Source: Acidihalobacter prosperus (GTDB lineage Bacteria; Pseudomonadota; Gammaproteobacteria; DSM-5130; Acidihalobacteraceae). From it: DNA of 45,362 nucleotides. The position numbers and the translations under genes were made by a program. How positions within the stretch are numbered: the stretch's first letter is position 1; each line of letters begins with the position of its first letter. The stretch lies in NCBI RefSeq assembly GCF_000754095.2, contig NZ_JQSG02000006.1, forward strand, positions 559,576 to 604,937, written 5' to 3'. Below are positions 4,459-35,800 of this stretch, in pieces. Below the pieces are notes generated by a model, which made no database searches, had not been told where the DNA came from, and saw only the letters and a list, made by a program, of their open reading frames with translations.

Positions 4459-4474
4459 TGGCACTGCAATTGCA
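4459..4474 (+). promoter_or_regulatory. Sigma54 (RpoN) -24/-12 promoter of the prkA operon
   Basis: TGGCAC, five bases, then TTGCA matches the sigma54 consensus at every conserved position. GG is at 4460-4461 and GC at 4472-4473, exactly 10 bases apart. Transcription would begin near 4485. In E. coli the homologous yeaGH genes are reported to depend on RpoN and NtrC, so placement agrees with family knowledge. Confidence 0.8.
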
Positions 4475-7803: not shown

Positions 7804-9335
7804 CGCGCCGGCAATGTCTCTCCGAGGGTTCCGAGTGGACGTTCGAGCTGATCCAGCGCTACGAAAAGGAAATTGCGCGCGTGGCTTCGCACTACGGCCT
7901 CGATACCTATCCCAATCAGATCGAGATCATCAGTGCGGAGCAGATGATGGACGCCTATTCGTCTGCCGGCATGCCTGTGGGTTATCACTACTGGTCGTAC
8001 GGCAAGCAGTTCATTGCCGTCGAGCAGCGCTACAAGCGAGGGCAAATGGGACTGGCGTACGAGATCGTGATCAATTCCGATCCCTGCATCGCCTACCTCA
8101 TGGAAGAAAACACCATGATGATGCAGGCGTTGGTGATCGCGCACGCCAGCTATGGGCACAATTCCTTCTTCAAGGGCAATTATTTGTTCCGTACCTGGAC
8201 CAATGCCGATGCCATCATCGACTACCTGCTGTTTGCCAAGCACTACATCGCGCATTGCGAGGAACGTTACGGCGAAGAGGCCGTCGAGTTGCTGCTCGAT
8301 TCCTGCCATGCGCTGATGAACTACGGCGTCGACCGCTACAAGCGTCCGACCCGGCTTTCGGCGCAGCGTGAAATAGCACGCCAGCGTGAGCGCGAGGCCT
8401 ACCGCCAGTCCCTGATCAACGATCTGTGGCGGACCATCCCGACCCGTCCCACCGACGAGGCCCGGGACGATGATGCGGAGCGTTTTCCGCAGGAGCCGCA
8501 GGAGAACCTGCTGTATTTCATCGAGAAGAACGCGCCGCTGCTCGAACCCTGGCAACGGGAGATCGTACGTATCGTGCGCAAGATCGCGCAATATTTCTTC
8601 CCACAGCGCCAGACCCAGGTGATGAACGAGGGTTGGGCCACATTCTGGCATTACACGCTCATCAACCACCTGTACGACGAAGGCCTGCTCAGCGACGGCT
8701 TCATGCTGGAATTCATGCAGTCGCACACCAATGTCGTCTTCCAGCCCGGTTACGACGACCCGCGCTACGGCGGCATCAACCCCTATGCGCTGGGCTTTGC
8801 GATGATGAGCGACATCCGTCGCATCTGCGAGCATCCGACCGACGAGGATCGTCAGTGGTTTCCTGAGCTGGCGGGGAGCGACTGGCTGCAGTCGCTGGAT
8901 TTCGCGATGCGCAACTTCAAGGACGAGAGCTTCATCGTGCAGTACCTCTCGCCCAAGGTCATCCGCGACCTAAAGCTGTTTTCCGTGCTGGACGACGACG
9001 AGCGCGAGAACCTCGAGATATCGGCGATCCACGACGAAGCCGGCTACCGCTACGTGCGCGACGCCCTGGCCGAGCAATACAACCTCGGCAGCCGCGAACC
9101 CGACATCCAGATCTACGACGTCGACCGTCGCGGCGACCGTTCGCTCACCCTGCGCCACACCCGGCACAACCGGCGCGAACTGGGCGAGTCGACCGACGAG
9201 GTGCTGCGCCACCTGGCGCGGCTGTGGGGTTTCGACGTGCGCCTGGAGACGGTGTTCGAGGACGGCAGCGTGGAAATCACCCACGAATGCCTCGTCGAAC
9301 CGAGCGCGGCTCCAGGCCGAGTGACCATGCGATGA
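7800..9335 (+). CDS. SpoVR family protein (YcgB-like)
   Basis: A 511-residue protein, near the 510 of E. coli YcgB. The start at 7800 gives [18 protein letters not shown]; the frame runs open far upstream but is shadow there. Typical SpoVR segments are visible: [53 protein letters not shown] and a [10 protein letters not shown] segment. In Bacillus SpoVR is needed for spore cortex formation; in non-sporulating proteobacteria the role is unknown and linked to stress with PrkA/YeaH. The His-rich and Glu-rich conserved blocks suggest a metal site, which is an inference. It overlaps yeaH by ATGA and the LysE-like gene by a second ATGA. Confidence 0.93.
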
Positions 9336-32689: not shown

Positions 32690-33544
32690 TCAGTCGAACA
32701 CCACGGTCTTGTTGCCGTGGATGAGGACACGATCCTCCAGGTGATAGCGCAGGCCGCGTGCGAGGACGGATTTTTCCACGTCGCGACCGAGCCGGACGAG
32801 GTCGTCGACGGTGTCGTCGTGGGCCACGCGGATCACGTCCTGCTCGATGATGGGACCGGCGTCGAGCACCTCGGTGACGTAATGGCAGGTGGCGCCGATC
32901 AGTTTGACGCCGCGCTCGAAGGCCTTGTGGTAGGGCTTGGCGCCGACGAAGGAAGGCAGGAAGCTGTGGTGGATGTTGATCACCCGGCCGGCGTACTTCG
33001 TGCACAGATCGGGCGGCAGGATCTGCATGTAACGTGCGAGCACCACGGTATCGGCGTCGCAGCCGTCGACCAGCTTGCTGACGGCGGCGAAGGCGGCCTG
33101 TTTGTCATGCTGCGGCACCGGCACGCAGTGGTAGGGGATCCCGTGCCATTCGACGAAGTCGCGCAGATCCTCGTGATTGGAAATCACGCAGGGAATGTCG
33201 AACACCATTTCCTGGCTCCGCCAGCGGTGCAGCAGGTCCGACAAGCAGTGGTCCAGCCGGCTGGCCATCAGCACCACGCGCTTGGGCGTGGCGGCGTCGG
33301 CAATACGCCATTCCATGCCGAAACGCTCGCCGATGGGCGCGAAGCGGGTGCGGAAGCCGTCGAGGTCGAAGGGCAGCGAGTCGGCCAGGATTTCGTAGCG
33401 CATGAAAAACCAGCCGTTGGCCGCGTCCGCGTGCTGACTGGCTTCCAGTATCCAGCCGCCGTGCTCGGCGAGGAAGCCGGAAACGGCGGCGACGATTCCC
33501 ACGCGGTCTTCGCAGGCCATCACGAGTCGGTAGCTGTTGGACAT
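32690..33544 (-). CDS. purU: Formyltetrahydrofolate deformylase
   Basis: A 284-residue protein. An N-terminal ACT domain (1-85, [28 protein letters not shown]) is followed by a formyltransferase-fold domain with [44 protein letters not shown] and GPIIEQD. It hydrolyses 10-formyl-THF to formate and THF, balancing the one-carbon pool and supplying formate to PurT. It is divergent from arfB. Fits with the formaldehyde genes at 40252-42212. Confidence 0.95.
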
Positions 33545-33783
33545 CAGGTTATCCCTTGATCATGAATGATGCGCGGACATTGTCGTGGACAAGTATGCGC
33601 AATAAACCTTTTGCTTGTAATGGATATGATGCCCGCGCGCTGAAGCGGGTGGCGCGGGGCGTTATGCTAGGGCCTGTTCACGGTCGAGGGTGCGGGCAAT
33701 GCCGGAGGAGGCGCCTTTCGACGCGGCTTGTGGAAGCGACCGTATGTACGCCGTTGGGGCGAGAGGCCGACAAGGGTTGCAGA

Positions 33784-34204
33784 ATGAATGCGCAAGATGA
33801 CGATCTCAGAATGGCCGACGGCTTGACGATTCCCGCACGGGAGATCGAGCTGACGGCGATACGTGCGACGGGGCCTGGGGGGCAAAACGTGAACAAGGTG
33901 GCCACCGCCATCCATCTGCGCTTCGACATCCGTGCCTCCTCGCTGCCCGAATCCGTACGCGAGCGACTGCTGGCATGGTGCGACCAGCGCATCAGCCGGG
34001 AGGGTGTGATCGTGGTCAAGGCGCAGCGCTACCGCAGCCAGGAGCGCAACGTCGAGGATGCCCGGGCGCGCCTGCGCACGCTTGTCGAGGCCGCGCCGGC
34101 CGACCCGGCCCTCGCGTGGCGCGCGCGAGCGGCGCCTGGCGGGCAAGGCGTTGCGCGGGCGCACCAAATCACTGCGCGGCCGCGTGAAGGGATCGGACGA
34201 TTGA
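33784..34204 (+). pseudogene. arfB: arfB (YaeJ) peptidyl-tRNA hydrolase with a frameshift
   Basis: ArfB rescues stalled ribosomes by hydrolysing peptidyl-tRNA with a GGQ motif (residues 32-34 here, in [10 protein letters not shown]). The globular domain is intact: [14 protein letters not shown] and [13 protein letters not shown] match YaeJ. The basic C-terminal tail that enters the mRNA channel is also encoded, but in the next frame: [18 protein letters not shown] and [17 protein letters not shown], ending at TGA 34202-34204. The frame changes near 34092-34100 in a CG-rich run, by a 2-base loss or 1-base gain. In the uninterrupted frame translation instead runs into the next gene. This may be a real mutation, a sequence error or, less likely, programmed. 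Confidence 0.8.
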
Positions 34205-34905
34205 ACGCGCGGACCTGGAGGCGCGTGCGCGGCTGGGCCGGCGTGGTGCTGGGGTTGGGACTGCTTGCGGCGGGAGGGTGCGCGATGGCGAACGGCAAGG
34301 TGATCGCTTACGACGTGTTCCTGATCCCGGGAGACGGTCTACGTCCGCTGGTGCAGACGCTGGCGCGGCAGTTGTCGGCCCAGGGTTTGCACCCGCTATA
34401 CGCGCAGGGCTACCTGCCGCACGTCACGCTGTATCTCACCGACTACCCGTCGGGGCGGCTGCCGGAGATCGAGCGACGGGTGCGTGCGCTGGCGGCGCAC
34501 GAGCCTGGCTTCGACATGCGCCTCGGGCGGATCGTGGCCACGCCCAGCCACTGGCTGCTGCTTCAGGTCGGCGTCAATCGCCGCATGCGGCGTCTTGCCG
34601 ATGCGGTCACCCGCGCGCTCGATCCCCTGCGCGTGTCGCACCCGCCGATGCCGGGTTGGGTGAGGGCCTATCCGGAAAAGCAGGCCGTGTTCCGCCGCTG
34701 GGGCAGTCCCAACGTGTTCGCGCAGTTCCAGCCGCACCTGACCCTGCTGACCCCCGCCGACCCGGCACGCATCGCGTCCTTCATGCGCGGGCCGGGCGGG
34801 CATTTCGCCGGCGGTCGGATCCGTGCCGTGGGCATCGGCATCGCTGAGGTCGATGCTCACGGTCAGGCGCACCGCGTGCTGTTACGGGTACCGTTCGCGC
34901 CCTAG
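34201..34905 (+). CDS. Exported 2H phosphoesterase (2'-5' RNA ligase-like), possible lipoprotein
   Basis: A 234-residue protein starting at TTG 34201, which overlaps the arfB TGA and follows AAGGGA at good spacing. The N-terminus is basic, then hydrophobic ([13 protein letters not shown]), with Cys27 as a possible lipidation site. The mature part has two HxT motifs, HVTL at 74-77 and HLTL at 179-182, the catalytic histidines of the 2H/LigT superfamily that act on 2',3'-cyclic phosphates or 2'-5' bonds. An extracytoplasmic place is unusual for LigT-like enzymes. Without the signal, ATG 34285 would give a shorter cytoplasmic form. Substrate unknown. Confidence 0.75.
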
Positions 34906-34909
34906 CCGT

Positions 34910-35800
34910 TCAGGCTTCGGCCGGTTGCCTGCGCGGCAGCATCGCGAGCGTGACGCCGCCGATCACCAGCGCGCCGCCGACGAGTTGGGCGGCGGTCGGC
35001 AGAATGCCGACCAGGGTGTCGAGCAGCATGGCGAAGACCGGCACCAGATTGAGAAACAGCGAGGTGCGGCCCGCGCCCAGGTGGGCGATGCCGATGCTCC
35101 AGAAGAGATAGAACAGCACGGTACCGCCGATCACCATCACCGCCAGCGCGGCCAGGGCCTCGCCGCCCGGCATGCGCAGCGGCTCGCCCGAACCGAGGGC
35201 GACGAGCACCAGCAGCGCCGCGCCGGCCGCCATCACCAGCGAGGTGTTGGTCAGCGGCGGCCCGGCCGGCATGTAACGGCGGGTAAGTACGTTGTAGGCC
35301 GCCCAGGCGAAATCGGCGGCGATCATCAGCGCATCGCCGCTGGATATCTTGAGCGCCGCCAGGCGCTCCAGGCTGCCGCCCGAGATCACCACCACCACGC
35401 CGATCAGCGCCAGGGGCAGTGCGGCGAGCTGGCGCGCGGTGGGGCGTTCGCCTAGGGTGAGCGCCGCAAGCAGGGTGGTCAGCAAGGGGTTGGTGGCGAG
35501 GATCAATGCGGCGTTGGCCGGCGAGGTGTGCTGCAGGGCGAAGAAGAACAGCAGATTGAAGCCGCCGATGCCGACCACCCCGAGCATCAGGTAGATCGGA
35601 CCGTGACGGCGTGCGGAACCGACCAGATCGCCGCCGCGCCAGGCCACGATGGCCATGATCAGCAGCGTGCCGAAGAGAAAGCGCGCGGCCGCCGCCCACA
35701 GCGGGGGCAGGGCGGTCATCACCGGACCGGCGAGGGTGAAATTGGCGCCGCCGAAGAACACCGCGGCGGTGACGAGCAGATAGACCAGTGCCGTGTTCAT
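34910..35800 (-). CDS. DMT/EamA family transporter
   Basis: A 296-residue inner membrane protein with ten predicted helices in two EamA repeats (about 5-140 and 150-285). Typical segments are ANAALILATNPLLTTLLAALTLGERP and TSLFLNLVPVFAMLLDTLVGILP. EamA proteins export amino acids or other metabolites. AAGGAAA precedes the ATG. Divergent from a GcvA-like LysR gene over 76 bases, so it is the likely target of that regulator. Confidence 0.9.
   Translation of the reverse strand: MNTALVYLLVTAAVFFGGANFTLAGPVMTALPPLWAAAARFLFGTLLIMAIVAWRGGDLVGSARRHGPIYLMLGVVGIGGFNLLFFFALQHTSPANAALILATNPLLTTLLAALTLGERPTARQLAALPLALIGVVVVISGGSLERLAALKISSGDALMIAADFAWAAYNVLTRRYMPAGPPLTNTSLVMAAGAALLVLVALGSGEPLRMPGGEALAALAVMVIGGTVLFYLFWSIGIAHLGAGRTSLFLNLVPVFAMLLDTLVGILPTAAQLVGGALVIGGVTLAMLPRRQPAEA

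Follow-up and report, generated by a model that had tools for sequence, protein, structure and literature searches.

The closest described system to the locus reported here is ArfB, or YaeJ in Escherichia coli (PDB 4V95, 6YSS and 7JSS), a ribosome-rescue protein made of a GGQ catalytic domain, a linker and a basic C-terminal tail. According to PMC7427801, the linker and the tail position and activate the GGQ domain. Mutants of the E. coli protein were described by Kogure et al. (PMC3950681): YaeJ deprived of Thr100 keeps 35% activity, removal of both Thr100 and Glu101 leaves a protein that binds ribosomes with undetectable activity, and the isolated GGQ domain is inactive and does not bind ribosomes. 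Across 15,259 genomes, arfB was reported in 58% and trans-translation in over 97% (PMC11633108).

We analysed a stretch of 45,362 nucleotides from Acidihalobacter prosperus (assembly GCF_000754095.2, contig NZ_JQSG02000006.1, positions 559,576–604,937 of the forward strand; hereafter the window), which carries an arfB gene on its + strand. The gene starts with the ATG at 33784, and the frame opened there (frame 0) covers the entire GGQ domain (33784–34089), including TIPAREIEL, up to the motif RLRTLVE, whose last codon is the GAG at 34087–34089; past this motif, frame 0 encodes non-ArfB residues. Indeed, the frame-0 product contains the RF-1 domain of Pfam (PF00472) and matches the ArfB equivalog model of NCBIfam (NF006718) with 137.1 bits for a cut-off of 100, which bears out both the identity of the gene and the integrity of its GGQ domain, as claimed in an earlier note on this DNA. 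The match is restricted to positions 3–104 of the 140 in the profile, whereas the intact ArfB of a congener (G001) extends to position 138.

The conserved basic, ribosome-binding tail is encoded on the same strand at 34094–34204, but in the +1 frame only. It ends at a TGA (34202–34204) overlapping the TTG (34201–34203) that opens the reading frame of the next gene, exactly the arrangement that had been noticed earlier. Judging from residue identity, the likeness of this +1 translation to an ArfB tail is no chance match, because 28 of its 36 residues, counted on the sequences, agree with the in-frame tail of G001 (a second comparison gave 78.6% over 28 residues). All the equivalents of the residues required in the E. 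coli tail (R105, T108, R118, L119, K122, K129 and R132; numbering from PMC3950681) are still encoded in the +1 frame, the equivalents being taken from a gap-free alignment of the G001 ArfB with E. coli YaeJ. In both congeners available, G001 and G002, as well as in a further relative (G004), the tail is read in frame with the GGQ domain.

What parts the tail from the GGQ domain in the window is a loss of linker DNA. A DNA alignment to the two congeners reveals that 20 nt of the linker are missing from the window as one gap, at the junction between GGCCGCGC and CGG (34090–34097, + strand), which MAFFT sets between 34096 and 34097 with endpoints ambiguous by a few bases; the remaining arfB gaps in the same alignment are single in-frame codons. 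Accordingly, measured from the RSQERN Asn codon up to the RR codons of the tail, the distance is 46 nt in the window, for 66 nt in G001 and 66 nt in G002. Since a loss of 20 nt does not correspond to a whole number of codons, it displaces the tail into the +1 frame. The earlier note had envisaged a cure by two added bases or one removed, which does not fit a lesion of 20 nt missing relative to both congeners. The first reading of the locus is therefore corrected: the damage is a linker deletion, hence frameshifting would not restore the normal protein.

The length of this linker was then compared across 97 aligned homologues, of which 17 came from the genomes of relatives and 80 from named public contigs, the latter being the best 80 of 557 confirmed relatives and hence the nearest ones rather than a random sample. 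Between the same anchors, the linker counts 21 residues in 88 homologues and 22 in seven, the last two being unscorable (L018, itself broken, and L041, ended by a contig edge), against 13 residues plus 4 nt in the window; homologue lengths were taken from the alignment, motif-based distances being used for the window, G001 and G002 only. One homologue, L006, whose tail switches frame farther on, was kept among the 95 scored because of its intact linker. The 20-nt loss, a lesion of the disabling kind expected in a pseudogene, is thus absent from the orthologues compared. With 20 nt of linker missing and the tail out of frame, no single frame of the window encodes an ArfB protein. Moreover, when mapped by us on the gap-free alignment of YaeJ and the G001 ArfB, the missing block appears to span the equivalents of Thr100 and Glu101.

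These results make it very probable that the arfB of the window is an ordinary, recent pseudogene created by the 20-nt linker deletion. Ribosomes starting at 33784 would pass the arfB stop and continue in frame 0 through the next gene, yielding a 373-residue chimera devoid of the ArfB tail. By analogy with the E. coli mutants, such a factor would neither bind stalled ribosomes nor free the peptide, so that the gene would have lost its function, as the earlier note expected of an ArfB without its tail, and ribosome rescue would be left to tmRNA–SmpB. The deletion itself may have been produced by slippage between short GC-rich repeats; at the deletion site, no perfect repeat was found in either congener. 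Counted against the pseudogene are the 373 codons over which frame 0 stays open, the preservation in the +1 frame of all the tail residues required in E. coli, and the intact appearance of the rest of arfB, in which no decay other than the deletion is visible. The comparison is based on one genome of the species and two congeners. A search by title and abstract start among open-licence papers retrieved none on an arfB pseudogene or an arfB frameshift.

The age of the break was approached through substitution patterns, with synonymous distances close to saturation and low counts. Between the window and G001, dN/dS is 0.15/1.00 for the GGQ part and 0.17/0.82 for the tail read in the +1 frame; the corresponding values are 0.13/1.15 and 0.36/1.13 between the window and G002, and 0.20/1.54 and 0.26/1.27 between the two congeners. 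Where the congeners agree, the codons changed in the window only are mainly synonymous, both in the GGQ part (12 synonymous and 1 non-synonymous among 87) and in the tail (5 and 1 among 36). Since the split, both parts thus seem to have changed mainly as those of an intact protein would, and the break looks recent because the tail and the GGQ domain are still largely constrained, in line with the earlier suggestion of a recent shift. However, the dN of the tail relative to G002 (0.36) exceeds both that of the GGQ part (0.13) and that of the tail between congeners (0.26), and of the 13 bases of the tail changed in the window only, 7 are at first or second codon positions, so that the comparison with G001 may make the break look somewhat younger than it is; at most, these values hint at an early relaxation in the tail.

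The other rescue systems of the genome were also considered, as the earlier note had suggested. Both tmRNA (228.6 bits) and SmpB (192.1 bits) are present, and tmRNA was found in all four relatives examined (G001–G004). The suggested search for ArfA returned no match in this genome with PF03889, a model of limited reach that recognized E. coli only among 14 controls, and the NFACT-R domain (PF05670) was not detected in the genome either. No second arfB was found, with a single match at E 0.001 or better; the ArfB model gave four matches in this genome, of which arfB is the one among the matches listed, the three weaker ones being presumably ordinary release factors. tmRNA–SmpB would then be the only rescue system detected in the genome, a point that counts against the pseudogene. 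Among relatives, an ArfB protein was matched in 18 of the 37 genomes searched, and 69 of 140 genomes of the class (at least 90% complete) exceeded the cut-off of the ArfB model, the genome of the window being included in both counts. Together with the presence of tmRNA and SmpB, the class figure speaks for a dispensable arfB.

Among the alternatives, the one that best survives holds that arfB is intact in the strain and that the 20 nt were lost during assembly or culture. The locus offers some grounds for it, as the DNA there has a very high GC content and a potentially strong fold (−71 kcal/mol over 111 nt, with a z of only −1.25), the tail is well preserved and a single assembly of the species is available. 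The lesion, however, is one non-tandem block, which is atypical of homopolymer or base-call errors, and the assembly is rated complete (8 contigs, completeness 100, contamination 0.06). Besides, in the tracts of the window that are near-identical to G002 (at least 96% identity, alignments of at least 1500 columns), one indel, of 2 nt, was counted in 17,566 aligned columns. An error of base calling is an unlikely cause because the linker lost 20 nt, not the one or two bases of a slip, and the artefact as a whole strikes us as improbable. Of the possibilities of a recent shift, an error or frameshifting raised in the earlier note, the first therefore stands, while the second is less likely than was thought.

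The alignment with G002 (window positions 4459–42187) also revealed a sharp mosaic of identity, in which tracts at approximately 94–100% alternate with tracts at 70–87%, a pattern that recent recombination between congeners would produce. The high-identity tracts lie at roughly 9.0–21.5 kb, 26.9–30.8 kb, 35.0–35.5 kb and 40.5–42.2 kb, and arfB sits in a tract divergent from G002. At position 9302, within a near-identical tract, a 2-nt deletion relative to G002 makes an upstream open reading frame lose its stop and gain ten residues. Upstream of arfB, the segment 32121–33823 holds two genes, one with a GFA domain and one of the formyltransferase-ACT type (purU-like); this segment has no aligned counterpart at the corresponding place in G002, and G001 aligns over the GFA part but not over the purU-like one. 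Scanning 33500–35000 for promoters and terminators gave no site.

The gene following arfB encodes a 2H phosphoesterase (LigT/DUF1045/2'-5' RNA ligase superfamily; 34201–34905, + strand), whose TTG overlaps the arfB TGA. It has a signal-peptide-like start and shares the frame of the GGQ domain (frame 0), which meets its first stop after 33784 at 34903–34905 and hence crosses this next gene, a point absent from the earlier note. A continuous, apparently accidental frame of 373 codons (33784–34905, + strand) thus runs through the GGQ domain, the out-of-frame tail DNA and the 2H phosphoesterase. Were it expressed as a 373-residue protein and kept for a new use in this lineage, a peptidyl-tRNA-hydrolase GGQ domain and a 2H phosphoesterase would form a live gene fusion. 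What argues for such a fusion is the open frame, in which each of the two Pfam domains exceeds its cut-off; we nevertheless regard it as very improbable. Indeed, the joint would consist of out-of-frame tail DNA followed, in our own reading, by the apparent signal peptide of the 2H partner, arfB terminates at its own in-frame stop in both congeners, the two genes occupy different frames in G002, and the GGQ domain by itself binds no ribosomes in E. coli (PMC3950681). The 2H phosphoesterase gene adjoins arfB in G002, where it is intact, and in G001, where it looks broken, and was not found in the 15 kb examined near the arfB of G004. In G001 (L002:1960–2070), its beginning shows a TAG in frame and a change of frame, and a four-residue gap follows later, so that it looks broken; with arfB intact and the 2H gene apparently broken, G001 presents the reverse of the window.

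A further alternative, that programmed +1 ribosomal frameshifting unites GGQ domain and tail in a working or regulated ArfB, deserves next to no credence. A programmed +1 frameshift does exist in a GGQ-family gene, prfB, and the window has a tail conserved in the +1 frame, a +1 frame open from 34010 and a frame-0 CTT codon (34081–34083), CTT being the slip codon of prfB. As the +1 frame opens no earlier than 34010, the shift would need to fall between 34010 and 34094. No frame-0 stop occurs among the codons of 34009–34098, the CTT is followed by a G and not by a stop, and the longest homopolymer in 34000–34110 is 3 nt, so that neither a stop-coupled nor a homopolymeric slip site is found there. 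The fold of the stretch is unremarkable compared with shuffles, and both congeners lack the shift; the search for the same shift in relatives, proposed in the earlier note, revealed tails in frame in G001, G002 and G004. Finally, the product of a shift, at whatever position it took place, would have 14 residues between the anchors, approximately 7 fewer than the 21–22 of all 95 scorable homologues, whereas the loss of two linker residues abolishes detectable activity of E. coli YaeJ (PMC3950681), from which a working geometry of the joined product would not be expected. With a linker too short and no run above 3 nt, the idea of a shift overcome in a CG-rich run is very unlikely to hold. Two other candidates were rejected: transcriptional slippage, argued against in 34000–34110 by the absence of any run longer than 3 nt, and a tail-only peptide from the +1-frame ATG at 34058, which nothing supports.

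Returning to the pseudogene, arfB appears to be broken, albeit uncommonly, in other genomes of the class. By our own count, 66 of the 69 genomes over the cut-off extend to profile position 135 or more of 140, the exceptions being the genome of the window (104), G031 (118) and G013 (120). The arfB of G031 has an internal TGA. In G013 (L006), the last tail residues (SKTRRGKTKKLRGRV) lie in another frame, with the change beside a G run, which would be either an error or an independent break. Below the cut-off, the remnant of G045 (L117) is split between two frames, and that of G114 (L119) changes frame and lacks the middle of the GGQ domain. Thereby, arfB is broken in at least 5 of the 71 class genomes with arfB or with a remnant among the matches listed, the remaining 66 genes being judged intact from their profile span only, and some of the genomes with a broken arfB being drafts, possibly with errors. 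From these comparisons, broken arfB genes are uncommon but recurrent, with differing lesions. Two genomes were not counted as broken. G077 (L118) encodes in one frame a shorter protein resembling release factors; it contains GPGGQHVNR and a basic tail similar to that of ArfB, lacks approximately 25 residues of the ArfB GGQ domain and apparently belongs to another family. G087, flagged for one TAA, aligns in one frame without a stop and was counted as intact.

If the pseudogene is accepted, the window would capture, cleanly and in nature, a backup gene for ribosome rescue just as it is lost, with tmRNA–SmpB kept in the cell. Such a loss agrees with the picture of arfB as a patchy and expendable gene, and its importance is otherwise modest. 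Compared with ArfB/YaeJ, the window retains a full-length GGQ domain in frame 0 and tail DNA that keeps the equivalents of E. coli R118, L119, K122, K129 and R132, but it lacks 20 nt of the linker and has its tail in another frame. As in prfB, a gene of the GGQ family has its 3' part displaced to +1, but the window has no stop-coupled slip site, its two congeners are without the shift and a protein joined by the shift would fall short of the required length. With the broken arfB genes of G031, G045, G114 and G013, it has in common a disruption by frame changes, stops or deletions; their lesions sit elsewhere, however, whereas the window displays one clean deletion with no further visible decay.
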